Origin: Bacteroidales bacterium
Lineage (GTDB): Bacteria; Bacteroidota; Bacteroidia; Bacteroidales; VadinHA17
DNA: 45,905 nucleotides
Direction of reading: 5' to 3'
Assembly: GCA_019429325.1 (NCBI GenBank)
Contig: JAHYJA010000005.1
Location: 1 to 45,905, forward strand
Notes under the pieces: model-generated
The model's input: only the letters and a program-made list of their open reading frames with translations
What the model was told of the DNA's origin: nothing
The model's database searches: none
Program-made: the position numbers and the translations under genes
In this document: piece after piece, positions 4,582 through 35,427 of the stretch
Numbering within the stretch: the first letter of the stretch is position 1
How the letters are laid out: the number at the start of each line of letters is the position of its first letter

Positions 4582-4869
4582 AGTTAAGCTATAGTGATTT
4601 CCTTTTTATTGATGAATTCTATATCAAATTTACGCCATGAAAAAGCGGAAGTCAATAATTAGTCGATGATTTTTATGGGATCATCTAAAAATGATGCAAT
4701 GCTGTATTTCAACAAATTATGGGATTAAGGCAAAATAGAAAGAGGTACCAGCCTGATCTGAACAAAACTTTTTAGATGGGAGTTGACAAATTCTAAGTAT
4801 GCGCAGAATTATGGAATCGTAATCCAATATTATCGTATATTTATGGATTTATTGTCCAAATTTATTTAA

Positions 4870-5016
4870 TCCGCCTTCGCGTAAAGCTTCGGCGGACGCG
4901 AAAAATAGGTATAATTGGCTTCGCCGAGCTCACCCCGCTGATGCGGGGTTCGGTTCCTCGGTGCTTGCACCGTTCTTTGAGTCCAGAGCTTGCTCTGGGG
5001 TTCATACCATTTGATT
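4870..5016 (+). repeat. 147-bp multi-hairpin dispersed repeat, copy 1
   Basis: tccgccttcgcgtaaagcttcggcggacgcg...ccatttgatt. Identical by eye to 26775..26921 and to the reverse complement of 35159..35305. Contains hairpins accccgc-TGAT-gcggggt, cggtgc-TT-gcaccg and ccagagc-TT-gctctgg. Confidence 0.95.
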
Positions 5017-6922: not shown

Positions 6923-9421
6923 ATGCTTTTAACAAAACTGCATATTCCTCCTGCCGGAGTTAATGTAGTTCACCGATCAGGTCTCTTTGAAAAATTAAAC
7001 TCCGGCCTGGGCAGAAAGCTGATTCTTGTTTCTGCTCCAGCCGGGTATGGTAAAACAACATTGTTAAGCTACTGGATCAGCCAGAATAAAATTCCTGCTG
7101 CGTGGCTTTCGCTGGACAATAGTGATAATGACCCTGCAGTTTTTCTGGGCTATGTAATTTCGGGAATTCAAAGTATTCATAACGATTTCGGACAAAGTTC
7201 CCTTCGCCTTCTAAATTCACCCAATTCACCATCTGTCGAATCAATTGCCAGCCTGCTGATCAACGAATTACTCAGTATTGACCAACACTTTTTGTTGGTT
7301 CTCGACGATTTTCATTTGATTAAGAAATTTAAATTAGGCCTGTCTGTTGACGAAGTTCATTCTCTTGAAATAAAAACAGAAGGCTGGATTGCAGGGCTGC
7401 AACTGGCAGCTATATCAATGCAGGGTACTGAAGATATCTCAGGCTTCATTCGCGACTTGGAGGGCGACAACAGGTATATAATGGATTACCTGATTGAGGA
7501 GGTGTTAAAGACACAAACCGACGACAGAAGAGAATTTTTGCTTCAAACCTCAGTACTGGAGCAAATATCTGCCTCTCTGTGCAATGCTGTGGTAAACAGG
7601 AATGACAGTCAGTATATTCTCGAAAGCCTCGAAAAAAATAACATGTTTGTTATTCCCCTGGATGAAAACAGAACATGGTACAGGTATCATCATTTGTTTG
7701 CAGGCTTGTTGAAGCAGCGATTCCTGCAATCTTATCAGGAAAAAATTAAGGATATTCACGATAAAGCCTCGGCCTGGTTTGAAGAAAATGCCCTACACGA
7801 ATTGGCAATAGATCACGCCCTTGAAATCAGGGACTTTGAACAATCCATCCGGATTCCAGGCCGGATTGTTGAGAGAATGTGGGAAGTCGGCCATCATTCA
7901 GCCATCCTCAGGTATGGTAAACTGTTGCCTGATGAGGTTATCAAAAGTAACCAGGAGTTCGCTTTGTTCTATTCATGGATTTTAATCGCAGCAGGACAGG
8001 CAGCAGAGTCTGAAAAATATCTTGCTGATGCACAGAAAGTGATAGATGCCCTAATTAATGGAGAGGTATCAACAACGGAAGCCATCGGGGCCAACAAGTT
8101 ACTTTTCGGAAAACTTGCAGCCACACTGGCCTATATGAAATTATTTACAGTACTCCCGGAAACAATAATAAAATATAGTGAAATTGCCATTGAAAACCTT
8201 TCTGAAATCAACCCGTTGTGGACGGGATGGGCCTGGTATTTTATCGGTAATGCTGAGCTGGTAAAGGGCGATGTGCATAAAGGTCTGGATGCGTTTAATT
8301 ACGCGCTCGAGCACAGCAAGAAAACAGATAATATTTATCTGATTGCTACAATAACATCTGCAATTGTGTCGCGCCGGTGTGCATTAGGTCAGTACAGGAA
8401 AGCATTTGCTCTATGCACCGACACTCTTTCCCTTATGGACAGGCGTGGTTTTTCGGGTATTGCGAAGGTTGAATGGACTTTCACCGGACTCTTTTCAATG
8501 ATGTCGGTGATTCAATGTATCTGGACAAATTTTGATGAAGCTCTTGAAAACGCCAGGACAGCATATCAGCTATGTGAAAATGCCAGGGATATCAGGTATA
8601 GAATAATGGCATTACTGGCTTATTCATATGCTCTTCATGCTGTTGAAGACAAAATGGGAGCTTTTGATAAGATAGGCGAACTTGAGGATGTCCTGAAGAG
8701 GTATAAAATAGCTCCGTTTCTCGCATCAACTTATATCGGATGGAAAATATACCTCCTTATTGAAAGACATGAAATTGATAAAGCTGCAGATTTTGCTAAG
8801 GAAGTTGGATTAGGACATCAGCTGAAGTTAACTTTTGAAACCCTGTACTCATACATTCAGTTTGCCCGGTTGCTTCTGCAGCAGAACGAAAACACCAGAG
8901 CAGAAGAGCTTATGTTGGAAATATATGCAATTGCAAAAACGTCGAATGGAATTGAAAGACTGATTGACCTTAAACTTGTTTATATATTGATGTATTTAAG
9001 GAGGAATGAACACGAAAAAGCGGTATCAGAATATATTGATGCACTTGAAATGGCGGCCGATGATAATTTGATAATACATTTTCTTTTTGACCTCGACCAG
9101 ATGAGTGTTCTGCTGAATGATGTATACAAGAGGCATGCTGCCGGAAGGACAAGGATACCTGAGAGCTTTATGCAGAAGTTCAGACAGGCTGTTGAGACGA
9201 AGAAAAAACGACGAAAGATTATTCCGGACCTGGAATTAAGTGCACGCGAGCTGACTACTCTGAAGCTTATGGCTGAGAACCTGACGAATAAGGAAATTGC
9301 CGAAAGAACCTTTGTTTCGATAAACACTGTTAAAACACACCTGAAGAACATTTTCATCAAGCTTGACGCCAGTAACCGTTCAGGTGCCGTAGCCAAAGCA
9401 AAAAAGATGGGATTATTATAG
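6923..9421 (+). CDS. MalT/LuxR-family ATP-dependent transcriptional regulator with an apparent internal deletion in the ATPase domain
   Basis: Walker A SAPAGYGKTTL, LVLDDFHLI, TEGWIAGLQLAA, TPR-like middle, C-terminal LuxR HTH (LSARELTTLKLMAENLTNKEIAERTFVSINTVKTHLKNIFIKL). Confidence 0.9.
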   Translation: MLLTKLHIPPAGVNVVHRSGLFEKLNSGLGRKLILVSAPAGYGKTTLLSYWISQNKIPAAWLSLDNSDNDPAVFLGYVISGIQSIHNDFGQSSLRLLNSPNSPSVESIASLLINELLSIDQHFLLVLDDFHLIKKFKLGLSVDEVHSLEIKTEGWIAGLQLAAISMQGTEDISGFIRDLEGDNRYIMDYLIEEVLKTQTDDRREFLLQTSVLEQISASLCNAVVNRNDSQYILESLEKNNMFVIPLDENRTWYRYHHLFAGLLKQRFLQSYQEKIKDIHDKASAWFEENALHELAIDHALEIRDFEQSIRIPGRIVERMWEVGHHSAILRYGKLLPDEVIKSNQEFALFYSWILIAAGQAAESEKYLADAQKVIDALINGEVSTTEAIGANKLLFGKLAATLAYMKLFTVLPETIIKYSEIAIENLSEINPLWTGWAWYFIGNAELVKGDVHKGLDAFNYALEHSKKTDNIYLIATITSAIVSRRCALGQYRKAFALCTDTLSLMDRRGFSGIAKVEWTFTGLFSMMSVIQCIWTNFDEALENARTAYQLCENARDIRYRIMALLAYSYALHAVEDKMGAFDKIGELEDVLKRYKIAPFLASTYIGWKIYLLIERHEIDKAADFAKEVGLGHQLKLTFETLYSYIQFARLLLQQNENTRAEELMLEIYAIAKTSNGIERLIDLKLVYILMYLRRNEHEKAVSEYIDALEMAADDNLIIHFLFDLDQMSVLLNDVYKRHAAGRTRIPESFMQKFRQAVETKKKRRKIIPDLELSARELTTLKLMAENLTNKEIAERTFVSINTVKTHLKNIFIKLDASNRSGAVAKAKKMGLL

Positions 9422-12877: not shown

Positions 12878-14938
12878 CTAATAACCCGGATTCTGCATTG
12901 CTGCTTTTTCATCTGCTGTAAGCGCTCTTCCTTCTGCATTATAAATAGCATCGAGGAAGGTCTGCGGCAGCGGGCGCAGGTAATGCTTCTCCCTGATAGC
13001 ATTTGCCCCCGCCGTTCCCTCGTTGAATGTCAGGGCTCGGCTTAAAAGCGTTTTAGTCCGCGCAAGGTCTTCCCAGCGGAAAAGCTCGCCGTAGAGCTCG
13101 CGTGAACGCTCGTTGAGCAGAAAGCACATCATCCTGTCGTAGTCGCCGGAAAGGCCGAGTTTTGTTATAATGGCCTCGTCAACAGCCGGAAGGCTTGCCG
13201 GGGTGATCCCGGTGGTAATGTCCGTGGCAGCGGTTGTTACAGGAATATCGAGCGATTCGTAGTACGAGTTAGCATTGGAATTCGAATTTATCAATACACC
13301 GTTTGCGTTCAGAGGTGCATTAGAATTTGTAAGAACAGCGGCGCCGCCATCCCTGTATGCAGCCCTGTCTTCACCGTCCCTGAACTGTGCGCGTTCACGG
13401 ACAATATTCATAACCGAGATGGCCTCAGTATAGTTGTTTTGGCGGATAAGAGCCTCAGCTTTAATAAGATATGTCTCGGCTACCCGTGCATATATTCCAT
13501 CGCGGCGGCCGGCAGTGGCGGCTACCGCTGTTCGGGATCCGTCAAGATATTTGCTGAGCGCCGGGTACCTGCTGACATTGCCAGGCAAGCGTAAGTAACC
13601 GCTGCCATCGGCAAGGTAACGTGCATAGGAATGGGGTGTGGGCTTACCGGTTACAGGGTTATTAAAATAGACCCCGGAATGTGTACTTTTTACCAGCGGA
13701 GTTCCCCCGGCAGCAGGATTACTGAACCTGGTGTCACCCTCCTTATTGATAATATAGATCAGTCCCAGGTCACCCTGTGCATAAGTTACTTCAACAGATG
13801 TATTCGGGTCTGTTCCGTTAAGCTGGGCAAGGTTCGAAATATTGTTCAGGTTTGCTTTGGTTTTAAAGCTTTTCCAGAAACGCGAGTCATTCTCTATGTC
13901 AAATACGTCGAAAGTGTAATCATTTGTCCTGCATCTCTGGTACTCGCGCCCTCCGGCTATATCTCGTACAAAACCGGTAAGTGTTTGATATACCGAAAGA
14001 AACAGAAGATGCAGATAGTTCCCGTTCCCAACATCAGCGATGGTAGTTGTACTGGAGAACTGTGCGGCAAAAATCACCTCAGGGAGCATCTCGTTTGGGC
14101 CGTCAGATCCCGTGTAAGCGAAAATATCGGAAAAATCTGTTGCAAGCGGGTGGTGGGCAATAACCTCGTTTGTCAGGGTTATGATCTCTGCAAGGTCTGT
14201 TGTTTTGTACGAAGCGTTCCAGTCATCGTTTATTTCAGAACACCTGTAAAGGAGCGCCTTTGCCAGGAAGTGGGCTGCCACATCCTTGTAAAGCTTTCCC
14301 TCTGATTCTTCAACATCAGGCAGACCTGCATAAGCAGTCCTCAGATCTGCGATGATCTGGTTAACGCACTCCTCTTTCGTTGCGCGTATAAAGTACCTTT
14401 CAACACCTGTGGATGGCTCCAGTTTCAGCACAACGGGCCCGTACTGTTGTACAAGCCTGAAATATGAGAACGCGCGAAGGAACGATGCCTCGGCTTTAAA
14501 AAGTTTGTTTTTACCGGCATCGGTTATAACTTCATCGACATTTGCAAGAAGAACGTTGGCATCGCTGATGGCCTTGTACATCATGTCCCATATCTCATAG
14601 GTTTTTGTAACATTAGCTGTTGGAACATTAGGAACAATGGAACCCAGGTTGGAGTTATAATCGTTCCAGGTTTGTTGAGCCTGGTCGCCCCCTACAATGA
14701 ATTCATCAGTGCCGCATGCGTTAGTGGCAACTGCCTGTTCCCTGTTCATGAAAAAAGCCCTGTAGTGGTTGTACAACGCATCGGCGAGGTCGGAAATCCC
14801 CTCGGGAGTCTTAAAATAATCGGTGTTTCTCTGGGTCTTCAGCTCTTCGTCGAGAAAATCCTTTTTGCATGAGCTGATACCTGACACAAGCAGGATAATT
14901 GCCCAAAGCACTAATATGTTTATTTTAAACTTATTCAT
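12878..14938 (-). CDS. RagB/SusD-family nutrient uptake outer membrane protein
   Basis: Lipobox start ending SSCKKDFLDEE, EIWDMMYKAISDANVLL, KAEASFLRAFSYFRLVQQYG, C-terminal LNERSRELYGELFRWEDLART, downstream of SusC. Confidence 0.95.
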   Translation of the reverse strand: MNKFKINILVLWAIILLVSGISSCKKDFLDEELKTQRNTDYFKTPEGISDLADALYNHYRAFFMNREQAVATNACGTDEFIVGGDQAQQTWNDYNSNLGSIVPNVPTANVTKTYEIWDMMYKAISDANVLLANVDEVITDAGKNKLFKAEASFLRAFSYFRLVQQYGPVVLKLEPSTGVERYFIRATKEECVNQIIADLRTAYAGLPDVEESEGKLYKDVAAHFLAKALLYRCSEINDDWNASYKTTDLAEIITLTNEVIAHHPLATDFSDIFAYTGSDGPNEMLPEVIFAAQFSSTTTIADVGNGNYLHLLFLSVYQTLTGFVRDIAGGREYQRCRTNDYTFDVFDIENDSRFWKSFKTKANLNNISNLAQLNGTDPNTSVEVTYAQGDLGLIYIINKEGDTRFSNPAAGGTPLVKSTHSGVYFNNPVTGKPTPHSYARYLADGSGYLRLPGNVSRYPALSKYLDGSRTAVAATAGRRDGIYARVAETYLIKAEALIRQNNYTEAISVMNIVRERAQFRDGEDRAAYRDGGAAVLTNSNAPLNANGVLINSNSNANSYYESLDIPVTTAATDITTGITPASLPAVDEAIITKLGLSGDYDRMMCFLLNERSRELYGELFRWEDLARTKTLLSRALTFNEGTAGANAIREKHYLRPLPQTFLDAIYNAEGRALTADEKAAMQNPGY

Positions 14939-14982
14939 ATCGTGTATTTTCTTTAATGGTTAAAAATTCATTCAGTAATTTC

Positions 14983-17194
14983 TCAGAATCCCACGTTAAT
15001 ACCGAATACATAGCCGCGGTTATAATAGAGAGTGCCATATTCAGCATCTCTGAATTTGATCTGAGACCAAAGCATCCCGGCATTCTGTACCTGGGCATAT
15101 ACCTTAAGGCTGTTGATCTTTATCCGGTCGAGCAATTTTGCGGGCACCTGGTAACCCAATGAAATATTCCTGATCTTTATTTTTCCTGGCGCAAACTGGG
15201 ATCCGTTAGCATTGAAGAGCGCCATCTGTTCCTGGTCCTGAGGTGTATCCTGCCAGATGCCGATTTTTTCGTAATTATATATTATGCCTATCGATTCTCC
15301 AATGAACCAGTTATTTGCAACCATATCCTCTTTGCCGTTCATCAGCGATTCAATCTGGTCCCTCTGCCATGCAGCGGTTGCATTTATATTCCATGAGAAA
15401 TCGCTCATAGCTAAAAGTGTGGCATTGATTGTGAGGTCGATACCCCTGTTGCTTGTTTCACCGATATTTGCAATTGTCGAGGTAAAGCCCGAAACGCTTG
15501 GAAGGGCTACAGTTAAAAGAAGATCGGTAGTAGATGACCTGTAAGCTTCGATGGTCCCGTTAACCCTTCCTCTGAGGAAAGCGAAATCGACAGCAAGGTT
15601 GAACTGGGTTGTCTTCTCCCATCCAAGCTCCTGGTTTGCAACAGCATTTGTAAGAGTATAACCGGTCACGGTTGAGGTGCCAAAAGGCAGGGTAACCATG
15701 TTGATAGCGCCCTTTGTTGAGTAAAGCCCTACCGCAGCGTTACCTACTGTACCAAAGCCTAAACGGAGTTTTAACTGGTCGAGCCATGTAACATTAGTTA
15801 AGAAGCTCTCCTGGTCTAAACGCCATGCTATGGCAGCGCTCGGGAAGAATGCCCATTTATTTCCTGCTGCAAGCTGTGAGGCGCCGTCCCAGCGGCCTGA
15901 TAATGTTAGCAGGTATTTGCTGTTGTAGTTGTAATTAACGCGGGCCATATACGATTCAAGCTGCCGTTCGGTAAGACCGGAGCTCCAGGATGTAAGCTGG
16001 GCGCTGGTAAGGGTCCCGAAGGCGTACCACATCTGGCTTGGCATCTCGATACCCTGGCCTGAAATGCTCGACGACTCGCTGGTCCATTTTGATGCTGTCT
16101 GGAGCAGGGTGACACCTACTGTATGGGCACCGAATTTATTGTCGTAATAAAGAAGGTTATCGATCGTATAGGAGAAGTCTTTCGTATTGGAGATACTTGC
16201 ATTGGAAGCGCTGAGTTCCCTTACAATTGACTTAGCGTCGTTATAATAGCCGTTCCTGTAGTAGCGGAAGTCGGGGCCGAAGTTCATCCTGTACCTGAGT
16301 CCTTTAAAGAGTTTTACTTCTGTGAAGAGGCTGGCAAGAAGACGGAGTGTCTCGCGCTGATTGGTGGAGTATTTCCATTCGTCTATAACATTCCACACAC
16401 GTGCCTTTCCACCGGGATGCACAATAAGGTTTCCTTCTGCATCATAAGGAAGGGAATAGGGCTCAATCCTTGCGGCTGCCGCTATCAGGTCGGCAGTCAC
16501 ATTTGTGCTTCCTCCCGCCTGGCTTTGCCCGTAATCCTGGTACTGCCACGATCCGTTGACGCCTGCACCGAATGTGATCCAGTTCTTAGGGTTCAGCTCA
16601 ACGTTTGTCCTTAATGTGTAACGCTGGTACTCCTGTCCCTTTGTAGTACCCTGGTTGTCGAGGTAACCTATCGAACCGTAAGCCTTCATCGTTCTTGTAC
16701 CGCCGCTCGCGCTGATGGAATGGTCCTGGGTATAGGCAGGCTGCGTTACCACTCCCAGCCAGTCGAAAGTTTCGACTTTCGAGGGGTCCCATGTGTTGCC
16801 TGCCCAGCCTCTCTGGATGTTCTGCCATGCTGGTCAGGATTATCTGCCTGTCGAAGACGGCGTATCTGACATCAGTCCCGTCAAAAATATTATTAAGAAT
16901 ATCTCTGATGGGTTTATTCTCGGCTACGACGTCTACTATTCGTTCGACATCAACAAGCTTCTGGTTAAAGAGAAAGTAAAACTCACTTTCCTGTTCAATC
17001 TTGTTGAGGACACTCTCGATGGGAGAATTCCTCAGGTCAAGTGAGATTTTTGTGGTCTGTGAATATGCCGGACCTGCCATTATATTCATCATACCAAGAA
17101 ACAGAAGGAGAATAGTGATTTTCATCTTTAGAAGTAATTTCCGGCTTCGGGAATTTGAGCCGATCAAACTACAATAATTCAGAATTTTTTTCAT
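14983..17194 (-). pseudogene. SusC/RagA-type TonB-dependent receptor, internally deleted and frameshifted
   Basis: ORF 16598..17194 carries the signal peptide and STN domain (TTKISLDLRNSPIESVLNKIEQESEFYFLFNQKLVDVERIVDVVAENKPIRDILNNIF). ORF 14983..16752 carries the barrel (YTQDHSISASGGTRTMKAYGSIGYLDNQG to GYVFGINVGF). CarboxypepD-like and plug domains are absent. Confidence 0.85.
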
Positions 17195-17384
17195 ACTTTT
17201 GTAAAGTTAGAAGGTTAATACTCAGAGATGTTTTGCAAGAAATGTTGGTTAACCGCTAATAGGAGAGGGATTGTGTTACAGCACATTTCCTCTTTTTTTT
17301 TAAAAGCTTAAGGGTAGGTGTTTTTCATGGTCAGCAGGATTTAGGTTAATACTTGGTGTTATCTGTCAGGTTGAAATTTTCAGT

Positions 17385-18452
17385 TTAGTCGGGATCAGGA
17401 GATCTTAGCGGGAATATTATTACTTTTTTTCTGGGGAAAGTGCCATCTTCCAACGGTGCACGTTTTAGTTCCTTATAGCCAATGGGTGCCGAAATCTCAA
17501 GTAATTTCAGGATATCGGAAAGCGTCTCGTCCTGAAAAGTTGCCCTGTATCTGTAGTCATGGAGAACGTCTCCCTGTATTTCGATATCGACATTAAATAC
17601 CTGGCTTAATTTTTTTGCCACTTCACTTAATGGCTCATTGCGGAAAATGAGCTTACCGTCTTTCCATGAAATGAATTTATAGGTATCCTCATCCCTGACG
17701 GACACAACTCCTGTACTTTTATTATAGACCATGTGCTGGTCAGGGATCAGGTGGGTTATTAAAGTGTCGATGCCTTTGTTATTAATCTCACTCACAGATA
17801 CTTTCCCGGCTACAAGAGTAACCTCTGATACCTGGCCGGAATTAAAACCGAGGATATTGAATTTTGTGCCCGTCGCTCTTACAGCAATATCTGCAGTCCT
17901 GACAATAAATGGCATTTGCTCTTCGGATTTTACTTCAAAATAGGCTTCACCATTCAGGTAGACTTCCCTGTGCGATCCGGTGAATTTATCGGGATATCTT
18001 AAACTGCTTCCTGAGTTAAGCCATACCAGCGAGCTGTCCGCGAGCCTCAATGCCGTGCGGGTTCCAAACGTTGCATAGACTTCACTGTAAACAGGTTGCT
18101 GGAATGATATATCTTCAGCAGGCTTTTGAAATAGTTTCATTATATTCCATATTACCAGAGGGATAATAAGTACAGCTGCAATTTTTCCCCAGGCAAACCA
18201 TAACCTGCGCATGGCTGAATCTCCTGAGATACGTTTCCTGATCTTTGTTAACGCCCTGCTGGTATCAATTTCGTCAGATACGCAATCAGCATCGGCAGTT
18301 GCCCAGATATTTCCAAGCTGTCTGAAATATGTTGCATTCTCTTCGGAGTCATTTATCCATTTTTCCAGGTACTCTTTTTCCTCCGGACTCCCATTTCCTG
18401 AAAAGTACTTTGCAGCAACCTCTGTAATATCTGTTTTTTTTCTTTTTTCCAT
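17385..18452 (-). CDS. FecR-family anti-sigma factor
   Basis: EKYLEKWINDSEENATYFRQL, GTRTALRLADSSLVWLNSGSSLRYPDKF, REVYLNGEAYFEVKSEEQMPFIV; next to an ECF sigma factor. Confidence 0.95.
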   Translation of the reverse strand: MEKRKKTDITEVAAKYFSGNGSPEEKEYLEKWINDSEENATYFRQLGNIWATADADCVSDEIDTSRALTKIRKRISGDSAMRRLWFAWGKIAAVLIIPLVIWNIMKLFQKPAEDISFQQPVYSEVYATFGTRTALRLADSSLVWLNSGSSLRYPDKFTGSHREVYLNGEAYFEVKSEEQMPFIVRTADIAVRATGTKFNILGFNSGQVSEVTLVAGKVSVSEINNKGIDTLITHLIPDQHMVYNKSTGVVSVRDEDTYKFISWKDGKLIFRNEPLSEVAKKLSQVFNVDIEIQGDVLHDYRYRATFQDETLSDILKLLEISAPIGYKELKRAPLEDGTFPRKKVIIFPLRSPDPD

Positions 18453-18567
18453 ACAGCAAAGACGTTTGGCGAAGTGATTACCACACTGTAATTGTCAATT
18501 ATTTTCAGGATATTTTTCAGGAAGCCTTAAAAACAGACCGGAGATAAAAACTTCCCGGCACAATTTT

Positions 18568-19149
18568 CTAAATCAGATAGTCTTTCAATTCTTCCCTCAG
18601 AGAGATGAGAGCTTTACCTATTCTGACTTCCACCGTTCGGACAGAGACTTTTAGTTTCGTTGCGATCTCCTTGTATTTCAGGCCTTTGTACCGACTAAGG
18701 CAGTATGCTTCGTATATCTCGGGAGAAAGCTTGCTGAGGGCAACCTTCAGAAGATCCTTGAGTTCGGAGTTAATCACATAATTATCTGTATTGTATTCGA
18801 AGGTTTCAAGAGTTGAAGAAACTTCATCACGATATTTCTGCCTGATCTTTTTATGACGGATCCAGTCAATGCACCTGTTCTGTATACAACGGAGAAGATA
18901 GGATTTCAGGGAAATGCCGATAGTGATGGTCTTGCGTTCATCCCACAACCTGACGAAGGTTTCCTGGACGATCTCTTCGGCAATCTCTTTTTCCCTGGTA
19001 AAATTCATGGCAAAGAGGACCATGTCTTTATAATAGGTCGTGAACATGACAGTAAAAGCATCCTGGTCTCCTCCTCTTAATCTTGTCAATAAAGATTTTT
19101 CCAGCAGATCGTATTGCCTCGAAAGCATCGAGATGGTTATTTCTATCAA
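18568..19149 (-). CDS. ECF RNA polymerase sigma factor (sigma-70 family)
   Basis: FTTYYKDMVLFAMNFTREKEIAEEIVQETFVRLWDERKTI (region 2) and YKGLKYKEIATKLKVSVRTVEVRIGKAL (region 4). Confidence 0.95.
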   Translation of the reverse strand: MIEITISMLSRQYDLLEKSLLTRLRGGDQDAFTVMFTTYYKDMVLFAMNFTREKEIAEEIVQETFVRLWDERKTITIGISLKSYLLRCIQNRCIDWIRHKKIRQKYRDEVSSTLETFEYNTDNYVINSELKDLLKVALSKLSPEIYEAYCLSRYKGLKYKEIATKLKVSVRTVEVRIGKALISLREELKDYLI

Positions 19150-19321
19150 AAATAAATTAAAAGGATATCAAAACAAAATTAAATGCAGCCGGAGGAGGCG
19201 GGATTATATGGACCGGTTTTTAAGAAAACATATGCTGTTATTATTCCCGGCATATTGTCCGATTGCACGATTCAATCGAAGATTGTTTATCTTTAAAGGT
19301 TACTAACCAAACTCCACTGCC

Positions 19322-21736
19322 TTGACACAGAAAAGCCTGATAATCCTCCTTATCTTCCTGGCAGCCTGTAAAGGGTTTGAGCGAGAAACGGGAAGCACTG
19401 TTTTTACCGAAAAAAAGGAAGCAGAATGGATAACCGATGCCCGTCCGCTTCCGGAGAGCGATTCACTGTTTTACCTCGATCATCCTGCACCCCTGTTCCG
19501 CAAGGAATTTGAACCGGGCAAAAACATCAGGAGTGCACGATTGTATATCACTGCTGCAGGTTATTACAAGGTTTCTGTAAATGGGGAGGCCATTGAAGAC
19601 AATATCCTTGATCCTGCATGGACCGATTTCAGCAAAACGATCTGGTATTCTGAATATGACGTTACGTCGCTTCTGGCCGATGGACCCAACTGCCTGGGTG
19701 TTACAACCGGGAACGGCTTCTATAACCCTCTTCCGCTCCTTAAATGGGGACGGCGTAACCTGAGGGACGATCTGACGGTGGGTAAACCTGCCTTTATAGC
19801 AAAGCTCATTATCAGTTACAATAATGGGAAAACAGAAGAAATAGTAAGCGACCGGAGCTGGAAATATGCTTATGGTCCTGTCATGAAAAACTGCGTTTAC
19901 CTCGGGGTTCTCTTCGATGCCCGAAAAATAATACCCGGATGGGACAGAGCCGGATTTGATGACACTTCCTGGCAGACGGCCGTGCCGGGAGTACCACCCG
20001 GAGGTGAACTGAAAAGATCCTTTTTCCCGCCTGTACGGGTAACGGAAGAGATCAACCCGGTGAAGATCTACAATCCCGAAAGCGGGAAATATATTGCCGA
20101 CATGGGAGTAAACTTTACCGGTACCTTCAGGATCAGGTTAACAGGGAACAAAGGCGATACTATTGTTTTCAGGTTTGGTGAGAGGGTATATGATGATGGC
20201 ACTCTTAACCCGATGACCGCGGTTGCGGGCCAGATAAAGAGGAAAGGCATGGGAGGACCCGGCGCACCTGATATTGCCTGGCAAACCGATAGTTATATTC
20301 TCGCCGGGGAAGAAGAAGAGTGGTTCACTCCTGATTTCACCTATCACACATACAGGTATATGGAAATCTCAGGTCTGGGATATCAGCCGGGGATATCAGA
20401 TATTACGGGCTTGTTCATTCATTCTGATATTCCGGTGCCAAATCACTTTTCGTGTTCATCCGGATTGTTGAATTCAATACAGGAAATAACGGTAAGAACA
20501 TTCAGGGCGAACCTGGTTAGTGTGCAGTCGGACTGCCCGGCAAGGGAGAAATTTGGCTACGGAGGCGACCTGAATGCAACAGCCGAATCGTTCATTTACA
20601 ACCTGGATATGCAGTCGTTCTACCGCAAAACGATATATGACTGGGTGGATGCCATGAATGATTCATCTTTTGTCGACACAGCCCCGTACGTCGGGATAAG
20701 TTATTGCGGTATCAGCTGGGAATCAGCTTTTATAATCACCCAGTATTACCTTTACATGTATTATAACGATACCGCGACTATCCGGAAGCTGTACGAACAG
20801 GACCTGCAATGGATGGATAAGGCTGCGAAGATTCATCCTGAGGGCATGGTTCATGAAGGGTTAAGCGACCATGAGTCACTGGAACCTGTTCCGGTGGAGC
20901 TGACAGGTACATGCCATTACCTGCAGGTTGCCAGGATAATGCAGACTTTTGCATCTTTTATGCGTGATAAGGAAAATGAAAGGAAATTTGAACAGCTGAC
21001 ACAAAAACTGAAGTCGCTTGTAAAAACTGAGTTCTGGGATAAACCGGTAGCGGGAAAAATAAACCGGCAGACACTCTTTTCAACCCTGCTTTACCACGAC
21101 ATTATTCCAGAAGATGAGATTGAAGCTGCAACAGATTCATTAAGAGCTGCAATAGGTAAAGGACCTTCGGGGCATCTTGCAACAGGGATCTTCGGGACAA
21201 AATATTCACTGGAAACACTCTCCGAACATGGATCACCCCAGGAAGTTTTTGACATTGTTAACAGTACGGCTTACCCGGGATGGGGGCATATGATCGACCG
21301 AGGTGCAACAACGGTCTGGGAAACCTGGAAAGAGAGCGACAATACCTATTCGAACTGTCATCCCATGTTTGGTTCGGTAACCGAATGGTTTTACCGGTGG
21401 TTGGGAGGGATCCGCCCGGTGGCCGATGCCCCGGGGTTTAAGAAATTTATCCTTGCCCCGTTGGTCCCTGCCGGACTTGATTATGTTGATTGTTCCTATT
21501 ATTCACCTTACGGAGAGATTGTTTCAAACTGGAAAAAAGAAGGACCAGATGGTATTCGGTTCGAAATAAAAATACCGGAAGGAAGTACAGCACTGGTTGA
21601 TATGCAGACCAGCCCGGCTCAGAAAACAGAGATACTGAAAGACAACAAGCCATTAACAACCGGCATCCCGGAAGGTCTAGGAACCGGCAAATTTAAACTT
21701 ACAGGTGGAGAATATTTGATAACTGTAAGGTACTAG
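19322..21736 (+). CDS. GH78 alpha-L-rhamnosidase lipoprotein, probable TTG start
   Basis: SARLYITAAGYYKVSVNGEAIEDNILDPAWTDFSKTIWYSEYDVT, QSDCPAREKFGYGGDLNATAES, RGATTVWETW, APGFKKFILAP. Confidence 0.92.
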   Translation: MTQKSLIILLIFLAACKGFERETGSTVFTEKKEAEWITDARPLPESDSLFYLDHPAPLFRKEFEPGKNIRSARLYITAAGYYKVSVNGEAIEDNILDPAWTDFSKTIWYSEYDVTSLLADGPNCLGVTTGNGFYNPLPLLKWGRRNLRDDLTVGKPAFIAKLIISYNNGKTEEIVSDRSWKYAYGPVMKNCVYLGVLFDARKIIPGWDRAGFDDTSWQTAVPGVPPGGELKRSFFPPVRVTEEINPVKIYNPESGKYIADMGVNFTGTFRIRLTGNKGDTIVFRFGERVYDDGTLNPMTAVAGQIKRKGMGGPGAPDIAWQTDSYILAGEEEEWFTPDFTYHTYRYMEISGLGYQPGISDITGLFIHSDIPVPNHFSCSSGLLNSIQEITVRTFRANLVSVQSDCPAREKFGYGGDLNATAESFIYNLDMQSFYRKTIYDWVDAMNDSSFVDTAPYVGISYCGISWESAFIITQYYLYMYYNDTATIRKLYEQDLQWMDKAAKIHPEGMVHEGLSDHESLEPVPVELTGTCHYLQVARIMQTFASFMRDKENERKFEQLTQKLKSLVKTEFWDKPVAGKINRQTLFSTLLYHDIIPEDEIEAATDSLRAAIGKGPSGHLATGIFGTKYSLETLSEHGSPQEVFDIVNSTAYPGWGHMIDRGATTVWETWKESDNTYSNCHPMFGSVTEWFYRWLGGIRPVADAPGFKKFILAPLVPAGLDYVDCSYYSPYGEIVSNWKKEGPDGIRFEIKIPEGSTALVDMQTSPAQKTEILKDNKPLTTGIPEGLGTGKFKLTGGEYLITVRY

Positions 21737-21752: not shown

Positions 21753-21817
21753 TCATTCAGTGGTCATTCGGTGGTCATTCGGTGGTCATTCGATGGTCAT
21801 TCGATGGTCATTCGATC
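21753..21817. repeat. 11-bp tandem repeat, about 6 units
   Basis: tcattcagtgg tcattcggtgg tcattcggtgg tcattcgatgg tcattcgatgg tcattcgatc. Confidence 0.95.
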
Positions 21818-22136
21818 TTGGTTCCACCAGGATTACCACTTTCCCTGCTGCGTGCCCGTTGATCAGATAGTTCATAGCTTCTGCAGTTTTATCAAGGGTA
21901 TATCGCCGGTCAATTACAGGCCGGATAGTGCCATTTTCAAGAAGATTGGTCAGAAATTCCAGATCCTGCCGGTTCGGTTTTGCTGATAACGACTTCATCG
22001 ACCGGTAATCGGCGGCGTTTAAAGAGACTGCATGCACCCGGATCAGGACCTCATTATCTCCAGGCAGCGGCTTGCCAATTTCACGCAACGACAGTTTCTC
22101 CGGTACTCCCTTTTTGTTATAGATCACGGCTTTCAT
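21786..22136 (-). pseudogene. Mini MDR dehydrogenase: N- and C-termini joined in frame, middle missing
   Basis: [48 protein letters not shown] is joined to AKPNRQDLEFLTNLLENGTIRPVIDRRYTLDKTAEAMNYLINGHAAGKVVILVE. These align to the two ends of the full MDR at 10588..11595. ATGA overlap with the upstream HTH gene. Confidence 0.85.
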
Positions 22137-23093: not shown

Positions 23094-24188
23094 TCATTCT
23101 TTAATCGATAAGAACTTCCGTTTTTCCTTTTTACAGATCAGTTGAACAACCCATTTCCCTGTTTGAGCAGAAGGTGGAAGGCCACCTCCCGGAAACAGCC
23201 ATTGCCCTGCCATATAGAAGTGTTTGAGCTTCGGCAGCTGCAAATCCAGGGATTTCATCATATTTTCTTTTGACGGCATAAATCCTTCGTAGGCACCATC
23301 CTTTACACCCGTATAGCGTACATCGGTCAGGGGAGTTGCAACATCAACCACCCCGATATGCTCCGTAATGCCGGGGTAGATAGTTTCTAAACAATCAACA
23401 GCATCCTTTTCTATCTGCTTCTTTTCGTTCTTATAATCCTCGCCTTCAAGATTCTCCCATAGCCTCCAGGGGCTTTCAAAACGTAGAACAATGGTAGTTT
23501 TGCCATCGGGTGCCATTGTGGGATCGTAGGAGTAGTTCATTACAGAAAAACCATGTTCAAGACTGGTCCGCCCGATTTTCGAATCTTTTGTAATATTTAC
23601 AATTATGGGGGCTTCCGATGGAACTGATTTTAGCCTTTCATTTTTGAAATTGAGCTTATCGAAATATTCCTTGCAGGTTAACCGGCCAAATTTTCTGACA
23701 ATCCTGAATATTGGCAGCATCACGGGTATAACTTTTAAAGAATCGAGAGGGCTTCGTAATTCAGGTGGAAGTGCAAATGGTTCAATCAAAGCGCTCTTGC
23801 GCATATCGCTGCACATCTTTTGTATGGTCTTGCTGTCTTCGGGGGCAATTTCAATAAGGTATTTTTCCCACCGGTCGATGTTTGAATAGATAAAGAACTC
23901 GTTTCCGTTTTTGTCGATTATTTTGGAATGGATGTCGTGGTCAATAATTTCAGTTTGTTCGTTAATCACGTTGGTTTCCCTCCAGATATCGTAAAACGGC
24001 CCTTTTGAGGTTCCTACGAGCCAGTGCAGGCAATAATCGAACCTGAAGCCTTTACGTTCCCATGCTGTGCACTGACCGCCTGCAACCGAGTGCATCTCAA
24101 GAATCTCGGTATCAAAACCATTCAATGCAGCGTATATTCCGGCAGATAATCCGGCAACCCCGCCGCCAATTATTACTACTTTTTTCAC
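23094..24188 (-). pseudogene. Phytoene-desaturase-like FAD-dependent oxidoreductase with an in-frame internal deletion
   Basis: VVIIGGGVAGLSAGIYAALNGFDTEILEMHSVAGGQCTAWERKGFRFDYCLHWLVG; C-terminal HFYMAGQWLFPGGGLPPSAQTGK. At 364 aa it is shorter than expected for the family, with an abrupt junction at ERLKS-VPSEAP. Confidence 0.75.
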
Positions 24189-26542: not shown

Positions 26543-26774
26543 GCAGCTGGCGACAATTTTACAAATCTTCTGTTTTGAGATTTTTTAAATATTCCTTGTT
26601 AAAGAGAATATACTGGGCTGATGGAGATCTATTCGTCTTAATCTCATCAAGTAATATTTTTTCTGTCATATTGATTTTGTCTTCTGTAAATCTGCAACAT
26701 GAAAAGCACTTCCGCCCCGTTCGATGAAGCCGGAAGAAATAGCGCGCGATCCCGCACTAAGGGAATCCTTTTAT

Positions 26775-26921
26775 TCCGCCTTCGCGTAAAGCTTCGGCGG
26801 ACGCGAAAAATAGGTATAATTGGCTTCGCCGAGCTCACCCCGCTGATGCGGGGTTCGGTTCCTCGGTGCTTGCACCGTTCTTTGAGTCCAGAGCTTGCTC
26901 TGGGGTTCATACCATTTGATT
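26775..26921 (+). repeat. 147-bp multi-hairpin dispersed repeat, copy 2
   Basis: Identical by eye to 4870..5016; lies 13 bp beyond the stop codon of the minus-strand PIG-L gene. Confidence 0.95.
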
Positions 26922-27651: not shown

Positions 27652-28767
27652 TCACCAGAATCTGACAACCTCCCAATATGCCTTTTTGGGTTTAAGGTCC
27701 TCATCGAACAGCAAGGGGTAACATTTTCTTTCCCGCCGGTCGAGCCAGCTATGCCTGTCGGAGATATTCCAGAAGGTTACTCCGGTGATAAAATCTTTCT
27801 TTTCCCGAAACATGTCAAAAGCCGTTCTGTAAAAATCCATCTGCTTCTGCTCTCTTTCGGGAGTGAATCCCATATTGATTGTATCATTTCTCGATGCATA
27901 TATTGACACATCAAGCTCTGTTATCTGTATTTCCAGACCCAGGGAGGAGAATTTATCAATTGATTCCCTGATTTCCTGAGCGGGGGGGTTACTGATATTC
28001 CAATGACCCTGAAGACCAACGCCATGCACCGGCACCCCTTCTTCAATCAATTTCTTAAGCAGATTGTAAATTTTTTCCCGTTTTACCGGATTCTCAGTGT
28101 TATAGTCGTTATAAAAAAGCACAGCACCGGGGTCAGCTTCGTGGGCCCATTGAAAAGCCTTTGAAATGTATTCCTCACCGCATATGTTATACCACAGCGA
28201 CTCCCTGAAGATTTTTGCAGGATCCTGGTCGTCAGTTACTGCTTCATTTAAAACATCCCATGCATATATTTTCCCTTTATACCGCGTAACAACCTGTTTA
28301 ATGTGATCCTGCAACCTTGCCAGGGCTGTTTCCCTGGTAACCTGGTTCCCCTGAGAATCCTGAAACATCCATGCTCCGGTCTGGTTATGCCAGCAGAGTG
28401 TGTGACCGCGTACTTTCATTCCATATACCTGTGCAAAGTCAACAATCAGGTCCGCATGTTCCCAGAAATATCTGTTCTCTTCAGGGTGAATCGGACCCGG
28501 CTTCATAGCATTTTCAGCAGTGAGGCTGTTAAAATGTTTCCGGATCAGTTCTGCCTGATCTCCATCGAGAGAATTTGGTGCCACAGCCACTCCGACTGGA
28601 AAATATCCCATATAGAAGTCTTTCAGGCCTTTAAGGCTGTCTGATTCAATTGAAGCCTTTTCCCTGCCGCAAGCCCCGCAGCTGCTCGCTAAAACGATAA
28701 TAACACCTGATGCAACAAGCGAAATCAGGGTTATTAACCTTACTGATAAAAATTGTCTGTTTTTCAT
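27652..28767 (-). CDS. GH10 endo-1,4-beta-xylanase, secreted lipoprotein
   Basis: FNSLTAENAMKPGPIHPEE, VRGHTLCWHNQTGAWM, YAWDVLNEAVTDD, LEIQITELDVSIY, TGVTFWNISDRHSWL. Confidence 0.96.
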   Translation of the reverse strand: MKNRQFLSVRLITLISLVASGVIIVLASSCGACGREKASIESDSLKGLKDFYMGYFPVGVAVAPNSLDGDQAELIRKHFNSLTAENAMKPGPIHPEENRYFWEHADLIVDFAQVYGMKVRGHTLCWHNQTGAWMFQDSQGNQVTRETALARLQDHIKQVVTRYKGKIYAWDVLNEAVTDDQDPAKIFRESLWYNICGEEYISKAFQWAHEADPGAVLFYNDYNTENPVKREKIYNLLKKLIEEGVPVHGVGLQGHWNISNPPAQEIRESIDKFSSLGLEIQITELDVSIYASRNDTINMGFTPEREQKQMDFYRTAFDMFREKKDFITGVTFWNISDRHSWLDRRERKCYPLLFDEDLKPKKAYWEVVRFW

Positions 28768-28871: not shown

Positions 28872-29105
28872 CCCGGGATTTTCGGTTAATTCCTCTATGA
28901 TTCCTGAGATTTCCCCGATCTTGTTACCATGGTTTGTATTTGTGTTCAGTATATATGTTGAATCACAAACCATTCGCATACAAGTAAGATAAATGAGGAG
29001 TTGCTGTTTCTCCTCTTCACTCAGATGACCGGTTCGGATCCACGATCTGCTGCAAATTGCTTTCTTAAATGTGTTTGCCATTCTTCCACACTCATCCCGT
29101 AAACG
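28872..29105 (-). pseudogene. Internally deleted partial duplicate of the SNF2 helicase gene at 30520..32811
   Basis: Bases 28872..~29053 match about 31222..31402 nearly exactly, then jump to sequence matching 32706..~32760. About 1303 bp of the parent is absent at the junction ggatccac|gatctgctgc. Confidence 0.92.
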
Positions 29106-29222: not shown

Positions 29223-30515
29223 GTGGTTATTACCGAAGGACTGACATACCGCAGGATATTCCTTTTCTGGGGGCCGCTGGCACTTACATGGCTGATGATG
29301 GCCCTGGAGCAGCCAATCCTCATTGCTTTTATCGCCCGGCTGAGTGAAGCAAAATATAACCTCGCTGCCTTTGGTATAGCAGGATCGTTTGCCATGATAA
29401 TAGAAGCCCCCATAATTATGCTGATGAGCGCCTCTACAGCACTTGTCACGGGACGCCACTCCTATATAAAGCTCAAAAGATTCACGGATATTCTCAATGC
29501 AGGCATTACTGCTTTCCAGCTGATAGTTCTTTTCCCTCCGGTATTCAACTATATTGTTATCGTACTGATGGATGTGCCGGCAGAAGTGGCCAGGATTGCC
29601 CACATTGCGCTGCTTATTTTTCTTCCCTGGGCTGCATCGATAGGTTACAGGAGATTCTACCAGGGGATCCTCATCAGGAATAACCTTACGCGACGGGTAA
29701 CATACGGGACCATGGTACGCTTGTCAGTTATTGTGGTCGCCGGATTAATCCTTTATTTCGCAGGAGCCAAAGGGGCATACGTCGGAGCGGGAGCAATGTC
29801 GATAGCAGTGATCTGTGAAGCCATAGCCACCAGGTTAATGGTTTCCCGCACCCTGAAGGATCTTCATCTTAAGGAAGATACAGAGAACGGCAGCATGCGT
29901 TTAAGATCAATTGCAAAGTTTTACTATCCTCTTGCACTTACGTCAATACTGTCGCTTGGCGTGCATCCCTTTGTCACTTTCTTCCTTGGCCGGAGCTATA
30001 TGGCGCTGGAGTCGCTGGCTGTTCTTCCTGTTGTGAGTTCCCTGGTATTCATTTTCAGAAGCATGGGACTATCATACCAGGAGGTTAATATTGCCCTTAT
30101 TGGAAAGCAGAAACAGAACTACACACTGTTGAGGAATTTTGCCATCTATCTCGGAATAGCTGTTACTTTCCTGATCTCTGTTCTGGCTTTCACCCCTCTT
30201 GCCGATCTGTGGTTTATAAACATTTCCGGCCTCAGCAAGGAACTTGCTGATCTGTCGTACCTTCCGCTTAAGATAATGATCCTCCTTCCGGCACTGACGG
30301 TACTGCTGAATTTTCAGAGATCTTCCCTCATAATCAACGGGACCACGGGCCCCATCTCGGTGGCTACAGCATTGGAACTTGCCGGGATAATTGTGGTATT
30401 GCTCGTATGTGTGGTATTCCTCAACATGACCGGTGTGGTTGCAGCTTCAATTGCCTTCATGATCGGCCGGAGCATGTCGAACCTGTACCTTTGTCACATT
30501 GCTCCACGGGTGTGA
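29223..30515 (+). CDS. MATE/flippase-like multidrug or lipid transporter
   Basis: About 12 hydrophobic segments; MOP-superfamily-like sequence. GTG start inferred from promoter spacing; the ORF opens upstream at 29130. Confidence 0.75.
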   Translation: MVITEGLTYRRIFLFWGPLALTWLMMALEQPILIAFIARLSEAKYNLAAFGIAGSFAMIIEAPIIMLMSASTALVTGRHSYIKLKRFTDILNAGITAFQLIVLFPPVFNYIVIVLMDVPAEVARIAHIALLIFLPWAASIGYRRFYQGILIRNNLTRRVTYGTMVRLSVIVVAGLILYFAGAKGAYVGAGAMSIAVICEAIATRLMVSRTLKDLHLKEDTENGSMRLRSIAKFYYPLALTSILSLGVHPFVTFFLGRSYMALESLAVLPVVSSLVFIFRSMGLSYQEVNIALIGKQKQNYTLLRNFAIYLGIAVTFLISVLAFTPLADLWFINISGLSKELADLSYLPLKIMILLPALTVLLNFQRSSLIINGTTGPISVATALELAGIIVVLLVCVVFLNMTGVVAASIAFMIGRSMSNLYLCHIAPRV

Positions 30516-30519
30516 TCGT

Positions 30520-32811
30520 TTAGCCCTGACCCCTGCCCAGGATTATGGCTGCAACAGCTCTGATGATACCTCTTAATCTTGTGAAAAATGACCCTGAAGA
30601 AGCACTTACGGTTTTTTCTGCCTTGTTCTCGGATGATTTAGTGACTTCGCTATCAAGAAGATGATTCGTTATCGACACATTTTCCCCTTCGTCACTGTTT
30701 TTTGAGTCATTTTCTTCATTCTGAAGCAGGGATTGAAGCGAAGAGTTCTTAATAAAAGATTCCGTATTGATTTCAGTCAACGCTCTGACAGAATCCATAA
30801 ATCCCTCAAGCATAACACTATCTTTTCCCTCTTCTTCTATTACTCCTGTAAAGACAGACTTTTTAAAATCGAGCAGATACAATATGCGGTGTTCAATTGT
30901 ACCCCTTGAAATAAAATTGAACACATTTATGTGTTTTTTCTGACCGAGCCTGTATATCCGTCCTATTCTCTGCTCCAGCACCGCCGGGTTCCAGGGAAGA
31001 TCCATATTAATCAATATGTTTGCAGACTGGAGGTTAACGCCAACTCCTCCTGCATCAGTTGAAAGGAATATTTTCAACTCCGGATCCTTTCCGAACCTCT
31101 CAATAATGGCGTTTCTCTGGCTTGCTGGGATATCCCCGTTCAGGTATTCAAACGAGAGGTTTCTTTTATTGAGCTCCTTTATCAACAGGTCAAACATGCG
31201 TTTCCACTGACTGAAAATTACCAGTTTGTTCCCGGGATTTTCGGTCAGTTCTTCTATGATTTCTGAGATTTCCCCGATCTTGTTACCATGGTTTGTATTT
31301 GTGTTCAGTATATATGTTGAATCACAAACCATTCGCATACAATTAAGATAAATGAGGAGTTGCTGTCTCTCCTCTTCACTGAGATGACCGGTTCGGATCC
31401 ACTTGTTTACCAATTGTGATACATGATCATAGTAACTGTTATGATCTGCCATTTGCTCCCTGGTCATTTCCACAAAGAAATTTTTGTCAACTCTGTTGGG
31501 CAGCTGGCCGGCAATTTCTTTTTTGGTTCTTCTGATCAGAATCTCCTCTAATGTTTTATTAATATTCCTAAGGTTCCTGTAACCTGTCAACTTGCCATTC
31601 TCGTCTGTTACCTGATGATTATCAAGAAATTTAAACAATGCACCCAATCTGTACCTGTCAATATACTCAACTATGGAATGGATCTCGTCTATCCTGTTTT
31701 CAAGCGGCGTTCCGGTAAGAACTATTAAGTATTCTGATCTGATTTTCTTCACCGATTGCGCGGTTTGGGTTTTCCAGTTCTTAATCCTCTGCGCTTCATC
31801 AATGATCACCAGATCCGGTTTCCAGGCATAAATAAATTCCAGATCGTTTCTGCCGGCTCCGTAGCTGATAATCTTTATGAGATCTGTTTGGGCATATAAA
31901 TCTTTCCGTTTATGAATTAATCCTTCAACAATGGTTGACGTTCTGCCTGTAAATTTCTCGATTTCACTTTTCCACTGATATTTAAGGGAAGTAGGGCAAA
32001 TAATCAGGATTTTATTAACATTCAGATGTTTATGGAATAATTCAATCGCAGCAATAGTCTGAATGGTCTTCCCCAACCCCATATCGTCAGCCAGAAGTAC
32101 CCTGCCGGTCTCGAGAATTCGTATCACCCCGTCTTTCTGATAGGGATATAAGCGGGTGTCAATAAGGTCCTCGAAGACTTGGCTATCCCTGCCCTGCGGG
32201 AAGATATCAGCAATAAGTTTCTTCCTTTCTTCTTTTTTCCGATGCTGGTCGATCAACTGAAAGATATCAGGATATACCTTTATATCCGGATCGGTGATTT
32301 TTGCCTTGTGAATGAAAGAACCCAGCTCTGATAGTTTCGCCGGGAATAAAAATCCATCATCGTCAAAAATATCCCTTTCATCTTCGAAAACAGTAACTGA
32401 ATCTGCCTTTTTCAGCCGGATTCTCCTTTCCTTTCCATAAAAGACACTCAATGAAGAATATCCATTCTTTTGGCTTGCATTTAAATACTTTTTGTATTTT
32501 TTGAATCTCTCAAAATTCAGCAGTGTATATTCTATATGCTTGCAGGTGCCCAGATTGTTAATCGTGAAATCCGGACAGTTGCAGAAATGAAAGCTTTTAA
32601 TATTGTCTCTGATGGACACCTTATAGGTATTCCCGGATTCCGGGTTAAAGACTTCAAAGTCTGAGAAATATGGATGGTTCCCGATATTCTTTATCTTGAA
32701 ACGCTGATCTGCTGCAAATTGCTTTCTCAGCTGTGTTTGCCATTCTTCCACACTCATTCCGGAAGGTTTCCGCGAGTATGACACTCTGTCTTTTTTCGAA
32801 GGTTTTTGCAT
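30520..32811 (-). CDS. SNF2-family DEAD/DEAH helicase with SWIM zinc finger
   Basis: SWIM FHFCNCPDFTINNLGTCKHIEYTL; LLADDMGLGKTIQTIAAI; LVIIDEAQRIKN; LTGTPLENRIDEI; STDAGGVGVNLQSANILINMDLPWNPAVLEQRIGRIYRLGQ. Confidence 0.96.
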   Translation of the reverse strand: MQKPSKKDRVSYSRKPSGMSVEEWQTQLRKQFAADQRFKIKNIGNHPYFSDFEVFNPESGNTYKVSIRDNIKSFHFCNCPDFTINNLGTCKHIEYTLLNFERFKKYKKYLNASQKNGYSSLSVFYGKERRIRLKKADSVTVFEDERDIFDDDGFLFPAKLSELGSFIHKAKITDPDIKVYPDIFQLIDQHRKKEERKKLIADIFPQGRDSQVFEDLIDTRLYPYQKDGVIRILETGRVLLADDMGLGKTIQTIAAIELFHKHLNVNKILIICPTSLKYQWKSEIEKFTGRTSTIVEGLIHKRKDLYAQTDLIKIISYGAGRNDLEFIYAWKPDLVIIDEAQRIKNWKTQTAQSVKKIRSEYLIVLTGTPLENRIDEIHSIVEYIDRYRLGALFKFLDNHQVTDENGKLTGYRNLRNINKTLEEILIRRTKKEIAGQLPNRVDKNFFVEMTREQMADHNSYYDHVSQLVNKWIRTGHLSEEERQQLLIYLNCMRMVCDSTYILNTNTNHGNKIGEISEIIEELTENPGNKLVIFSQWKRMFDLLIKELNKRNLSFEYLNGDIPASQRNAIIERFGKDPELKIFLSTDAGGVGVNLQSANILINMDLPWNPAVLEQRIGRIYRLGQKKHINVFNFISRGTIEHRILYLLDFKKSVFTGVIEEEGKDSVMLEGFMDSVRALTEINTESFIKNSSLQSLLQNEENDSKNSDEGENVSITNHLLDSEVTKSSENKAEKTVSASSGSFFTRLRGIIRAVAAIILGRGQG

Positions 32812-35158: not shown

Positions 35159-35305
35159 AATCAAATGGTATGAACCCCAGAGCAAGCTCTGGACTCAAAG
35201 AACGGTGCAAGCACCGAGGAACCGAACCCCGCATCAGCGGGGTGAGCTCGGCGAAGCCAATTATACCTATTTTTCGCGTCCGCCGAAGCTTTACGCGAAG
35301 GCGGA
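35159..35305 (-). repeat. 147-bp multi-hairpin dispersed repeat, copy 3 (inverted)
   Basis: Reverse complement of copies 1 and 2, identical by eye; begins 14 bp after the CE15 stop codon. Confidence 0.95.
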
Positions 35306-35427
35306 TTAAACCAGCTCCGGGATCAGCATTGAGGCTTATTCTTCTACATTACAGTATTATCCTGTTAACTTGAGAATAAATCCTTCCCCTTTCCGTTATT
35401 GAGAAGATCTTCTTTAAACCTGACGTA

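Follow-up and report, generated by a model that had tools for sequence, protein, structure and literature searches.

Experiments on the levan SusC show that it loses function without its TonB box: when the box is deleted or mutated, growth is impaired much as it is in a strain lacking SusD (PMC7782687). In Bacteroides fragilis, SusC/SusD pairs are exchanged by inversion at the start codon in regions known as shufflons (PMC5729914). Small deletions in bacteria are known to arise by slippage at short repeats (PMC2884548). No direct precedent for a SusC without a plug, or for a SusC pseudogene, was found in the open-access literature.

The locus described here resembles known SusC/SusD loci in its gene order (sigma factor, FecR, SusC, SusD), in the STN domain at the SusC N-terminus, and in a barrel related to the SusC homologues 8aa4 and 5t3r. 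Unlike these loci, it has no carboxypeptidase-like domain or plug, 106 barrel residues are gone, and the reading frame is broken after the STN domain. We consider the locus likely to be a dead chimeric SusC, in which a regulatory cassette of one family was combined with the SusC body and SusD of another and then damaged by deletions.

Locus and sequences compared

The window, by which we mean the whole 45,905-nucleotide stretch of DNA analysed, is contig C171 of a 3.39-Mb MAG (assembly G000; 263 contigs, 97% complete) from a species-rich genus of the Bacteroidales. The locus spans positions 12878-21736, with the ECF sigma factor, FecR, STN-bearing ORF, barrel ORF and SusD on the reverse strand and a GH78 rhamnosidase on the forward strand. 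Its features, with the family to which each belongs, are as follows.

19322-21736, forward: GH78 alpha-L-rhamnosidase, divergent from the sigma gene, intact (Pfam Bac_rhamnosid domains, full length)
18568-19149, reverse: ECF sigma factor of family A, which opens the regulatory cassette, intact (Pfam Sigma70_r2 and r4_2)
17385-18452, reverse: FecR anti-sigma factor, family A, intact (Pfam FecR and FecR_C)
17265-17294, reverse: conserved stem-loop gaggaaatgtgc..acacaatccctc between FecR and SusC
16829-17194, reverse: signal peptide and STN domain, 122 aa, family A (Pfam STN, E=5e-11)
16829-16836, reverse: junction J2, from the end of STN to the barrel; CarboxypepD-reg and Plug missing, frame broken
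14983-16830, reverse: SusC barrel remnant, family B, matching from about residue 404 onward through the C-terminus apart from the 106 lost residues
15171-15180, reverse: junction J1, a 318-bp in-frame deletion at an imperfect direct repeat
12878-14938, reverse: SusD, family B, 686 aa, intact (Pfam SusD_RagB and SusD-like_3; 82-87% nucleotide identity)

The barrel and SusD were compared with five family-B relatives (G013=L020, G012=L021, G022=L022, L018 and L019). Six family-A relatives (G024, G062, G048, G046, G064 and G006) were compared by pairwise identity; they were chosen by FecR similarity, a choice that alone cannot produce a mismatch between STN and body. The wider pattern of erosion was drawn from sampled stretches of the assembly, namely the window and parts of other contigs. 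Rfam and tRNA scans of the window returned nothing.

A broken and chimeric susC gene

The initial annotation described a SusC without its plug among intact neighbours, and our results bear out both statements. Pfam found STN alone in ORF 16601-17194 and no domain in ORF 14986-16752, so that neither ORF has the Plug (PF07715) or CarboxypepD domain expected before the barrel; in L018, an intact relative, Pfam detects CarboxypepD-reg and Plug as well as STN. In intact relatives the STN, carboxypeptidase-like, plug and barrel regions are contained within 1123-1173 residues. SusD, FecR, the ECF sigma factor and GH78 are complete by length and Pfam, and homologues along the entire GH78 gene are present in G067, G012, G069 and others. 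The damaged gene still adjoins a SusD (12878-14938), and its barrel, with 106 residues missing, is homologous to SusC (PDB 8aa4, E=4e-53). The sigma factor, FecR and STN-bearing transporter gene of a trans-envelope signalling unit likewise stand in one row, with the transporter part broken.

At J2, homology in the STN frame stops at 16829 (ILTS) and barrel homology starts at 16830, with just 2 bp (GC) common to both sides as far as relatives show. The signal peptide is thus separated from the barrel by a break of frame at 16829-16830; a TGA at 16834-16836 puts a stop in the barrel frame, and the STN-bearing ORF continues out of frame to 16598, past the end of STN. Given the broken frame and the stop codon, no product bears both a signal peptide and a barrel. 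The SusC gene cannot make a working transporter.

A compensating SusC, raised earlier as a possibility, did not emerge from a search across the assembly. The barrel was found at 85% in the window, and the missing 5' half had no close copy: searching with an intact relative gave nothing above about 50% for this first part, short conserved stretches aside, and the other SusCs in the assembly are each distant. SusC fragments at the starts of contigs C57 and C138 were considered as the lost part of the family-A SusC and set aside, being no closer to family A than any SusC. The assembly also encodes a family of standalone plug proteins, represented by four small complete ORFs of 221-248 aa (L105 1514-2233; L106 1058-1801, reverse strand; L107 3262-3975; L110 5382-6044), which have a signal peptide, a carboxypeptidase-like domain and a TonB plug and no barrel. 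These proteins (C192, C16, C219 and C185) were rejected as partners for the plugless barrel because the barrel has no signal peptide.

The two sides of J2 have different relatives. The STN domain of the window is 56-71% identical to that of family-A SusCs and 27-33% identical to that of family B; over the length of signal peptide and STN together, identity to SusC N-termini is 53-66% for family A and 31-34% for family B. FecR is closest to proteins of G024, G059, G048, G062, G046, G064, G006 and G007 (48-52% over almost the whole length), as against about 30% to the FecR adjoining the barrel's own family. The barrel and SusD are 82-88% identical in nucleotides to the five family-B relatives, and the barrel remnant is 80-85% identical in protein to the SusC of G013 and G012. 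Since STN and FecR group with family A and the barrel and SusD with family B, the gene is a chimera. The initial annotation had proposed a deletion inside one SusC at J2; the loss of domains and the broken frame stand, and the single parent gene does not, as STN and barrel come from two SusC families. The history of J2 must therefore include either an exchange of cassettes or a large deletion that brought two PULs together.

In the history that we favour, a family-A cassette of sigma factor, FecR and STN would first have been joined to a family-B SusC body and SusD at the end of STN. An out-of-frame loss, visible in the assembly, would then have taken the plug and the carboxypeptidase-like domain, some 0.85 kb on the assumption that the chimera had been complete until then; the 318-bp in-frame loss, also visible there, would have taken part of the barrel. 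Short direct repeats probably mediated these losses, through illegitimate recombination or replication slippage, and the same mechanism may also have eroded other dispensable genes. The predicted outcome is a barrel with no signal peptide, TonB box or plug and hence no transporter, an STN peptide with an out-of-frame tail, and an orphaned SusD. We place the chimera before the deletion with moderate confidence, judging by size and boundaries alone.

The end of STN as a possible module boundary

Within family A, identity falls directly after STN. Among the six genomes compared, STN domains are 56-78% identical and the rest of SusC 26-37%, which is the level of unrelated SusCs; the SusDs of this family also differ in size. 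Family B has the opposite pattern (STN 69-88%, body 84-89%), so fast-evolving bodies are no general rule. J2 appears to lie at a natural module boundary: judged by sequence, in six other species the cassette of sigma factor, FecR and STN seems to sit on unrelated SusC/SusD pairs.

The region between FecR and SusC may belong to the same module. All six family-A relatives have its stem-loop at -96 to -103 relative to the start of SusC, each copy folding into a hairpin, and it is perhaps an attenuator or an RNA-processing signal. Besides the window, the loci in which it was seen upstream of SusC are L017 and L205-L209. Family B has a different inverted repeat in this gap, GCGCAGGAT..ATCCTGCGC.

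On the other side of the locus, homology to family B covers the body and SusD and ends exactly at the SusD stop codon, as would be expected if body and SusD moved as a unit. The genes that flank this pair in family B, a sigma factor, FecR and two genes that we take from their sequences to be GH28-like and GH105-like, are not found beside it here.

We tentatively suggest, at somewhat less than even confidence, that in this genus the sigma-FecR-STN cassette with its stem-loop is a unit bounded by the end of STN, that it may have been joined repeatedly to unrelated SusC bodies and SusDs, and that the window would hold one such exchange, later destroyed. This arrangement is like the SusC/SusD intergenic shufflons of B. 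fragilis (PMC5729914) in that alternative SusC/SusD pairs stand behind one common upstream region. Unlike the shufflons, which act by inversion at repeats overlapping the start codon within one genome, the mismatch here is between species and the boundary lies after STN. No silent SusC/SusD pairs were seen beside the family-A genes within a few kilobases of flank, where only single pairs occur.

The same junction could have arisen from a single multi-kb deletion across tandem PULs, which would have joined the STN of a family-A SusC to the barrel of a family-B SusC and removed the rest of the first SusC, its SusD, the sigma factor and FecR of family B, and the first part of the second SusC; J1 would be separate, before or after. 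STN and barrel do come from families that each have their own sigma factor and FecR, and a 1.8-kb multi-gene loss exists in the same genome. Such a deletion nevertheless leaves unexplained the exact end of family-B homology after SusD. Losses measured in the window mostly stay under 0.7 kb, and two PULs side by side were seen in no relative examined. We regard it as unlikely. Because of the module pattern of cassette and body, and because family-B homology stops at the SusD stop codon, we prefer with moderate confidence a chimera followed by a loss of about 0.85 kb.

Junction J1 and the age of the damage

The in-frame junction placed near 15168-15186 by the initial annotation, where QFAPGKIKI meets RNISLGY, was correctly read. 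All five close relatives (intact orthologues, 82-88% nucleotide identity) carry exactly 318 bp more, and the window aligns to both flanks; as 318 bp corresponds to 106 codons, the frame is kept. Microhomology at IKI had also been proposed. In the relatives the ends of J1 do fall in a direct repeat, around GATCTT(T/G)ATT, and this repeat is imperfect. In G012 an exact match covers 7 bp, and one of 10 bp results when a single mismatch is allowed (p 0.001 and 0.0003, respectively, against random positions); in two other relatives only 3 bp are exact (p about 0.3 by exact match). The search across the assembly gave no close copy of the 318-bp piece either, with nothing above about 50% besides short conserved stretches.

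Of the changes specific to the window lineage in 547 codons of the barrel, 33 are synonymous and 17 nonsynonymous, giving an N/S of 0.52 that is like the 0.45-0.60 of intact relatives, and the N/S of SusD falls between its relatives. An old pseudogene was ruled out by these counts, and the breakage is either recent or false. The barrel bears no sign of relaxed selection, and an intact gene that had been misassembled would show the same.

We think it very improbable that the remnant is functional, with a free periplasmic STN peptide that keeps signalling to FecR and holds the sigma regulon (GH78 and SusD) on in the absence of a transporter. In favour of this reading, nothing is missing from the signal peptide or STN, both of which are conserved, and the sigma factor, FecR and GH78 are intact. 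Yet the peptide bears an out-of-frame tail of about 76 residues, and signalling by STN transducers normally requires a substrate-loaded transporter. Furthermore, the damage looks recent, so the intact neighbours prove nothing.

Losses elsewhere in the window and the assembly

The locus had been thought to stand out. The same kind of internal loss is in fact present in at least four other genes of the window and on other contigs, and the window holds eleven junctions (J1 among them) plus J2 in one 46-kb contig. About ten of these, other than J1 and J2, lack 137-634 bp that are present in one or more relatives at 78-94% nucleotide identity, including the following.

1152-1162, reverse: alpha/beta hydrolase (ORFs 454-1257 and 1157-1810), 223 bp missing, out of frame, compared with G021 C311
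7321-7326, forward: MalT/LuxR-type regulator (6923-9421), 189 bp missing, in frame; G062, G001, G005 and G015 all carry the 189 bp
21995-21999, reverse: zinc-type dehydrogenase (21786-22136), 621 bp missing, in frame, compared with G021 C95
23622-23630, reverse: FAD amine-oxidase family gene (23094-24188), 393 bp missing, in frame, compared with G021 C102
24287-24641: gene relic with four successive gaps (634, 193, 166 and 388 bp) compared with G021

The zinc-type dehydrogenase retains 116 of 306 aa and has lost its ADH_N domain, and in the FAD amine-oxidase family gene the domain match is reduced from profile positions 1-435 to 1-118. The relic corresponds to two ORFs of G021 (303 and 207 aa) and retains about 300 bp of them, and further gaps of 157 and 137 bp lie near 30510 and 41916. 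For losses within genes the direction is clear from truncated Pfam domains or several intact genomes; for intergenic ones it is not clear. An 11-bp exact repeat marks the hydrolase junction (p=0.005) and a 7-bp exact repeat that of the dehydrogenase (p=0.003), and several junctions besides J1 have repeat p values at or below 0.005. End repeats are clearly above chance at the 223- and 621-bp losses and, in other species, at losses in G021 (452 bp) and G067 (347 bp). Four of the five clean gene-internal losses are multiples of three (one-sided binomial p about 0.045), or four of six with J2 (p about 0.10), an in-frame bias that is not decisive and was rejected as proof of selection.

Losses are also found beyond this contig. 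On C104 (L108 4488-6102) a second SusC/SusD relic, in which the plug match starts no earlier than profile position 70 and SusD is reduced to its C-terminus, lies between core-like, intact-looking genes that we read from their sequence as rpsP/rimM and dnaE, and C185 has two losses of 892 and 1699 bp in one stretch. About 53 kb of core-like sequence on three contigs, compared with the sister G067, showed three losses on the G000 side, two of them small and intergenic and the third spanning several genes; none was confined to the inside of one gene. These losses are like deletions by short-homology illegitimate recombination (PMC2884548) in their size of a few hundred bp, their frequent position within genes and their repeats below 30 bp, and unlike them only in density.

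Some further observations concern the window. The alpha/beta hydrolase has lost different segments in G000 (223 bp, within 454-1810) and in G021 (452 bp, L099 3436-3774), both at short repeats. A GH10 xylanase is intact in the window (27652-28767) and its copy in G067 is broken (347-bp loss at a 6+4-bp repeat, L126 2823-3477). Three copies of a 152-bp element, 99-100% identical, occur at 4865-5016, 26770-26921 and 35159-35310; the element is also present in C5, C30 and C16, where it forms the contig end, has empty sites in G073 and G014, and is a MITE-like mobile repeat. The 231-bp stretch 28872-29102 duplicates two segments of the SNF2 helicase gene next to it (30520-32811) at 92-96% identity and lacks the roughly 1.3 kb between them.

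A rival reading, to be weighed for a MAG of 263 contigs, is that one or both junctions in susC are false joins of short-read contigs and the true gene is intact. The undecayed barrel fits it, as does J2 in particular with its nearly complete lack of shared sequence, and contig ends can be joined on short overlaps. The contrast between core and dispensable genes comes from a sample, moreover, and a fault could be limited to C171. Against an artefact, the junction repeats in relatives reach about 11 bp at most, below the k-mer lengths usual in short-read assemblers, so repeat collapse is unlikely; no close copy of either missing piece turned up in other parts of the assembly; and the same kind of loss occurs in assemblies of other species (G021 and G067). 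The losses also cluster in dispensable genes and spare core-like regions, and since an assembler is blind to the dispensability of a gene, this distribution favours real erosion. We hold misassembly to be quite improbable, the evidence as a whole favouring erosion of the gene itself.

Conclusions

The locus is a new example of known processes, an ordinary pseudogene produced by known mechanisms, and in itself it matters little. Its annotation should read as a broken, chimeric susC, which keeps the intact SusD, sigma factor, FecR and GH78 from implying a working uptake system. Assignment to a family by STN and FecR can disagree with assignment by the barrel. The possible shuffling of cassettes is the part worth following. 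If it holds, predictions of PUL specificity that start from the regulator would mislead in this genus, as they assume a common history of sensor and transporter, and nutrient sensing and nutrient uptake would evolve as exchangeable modules.
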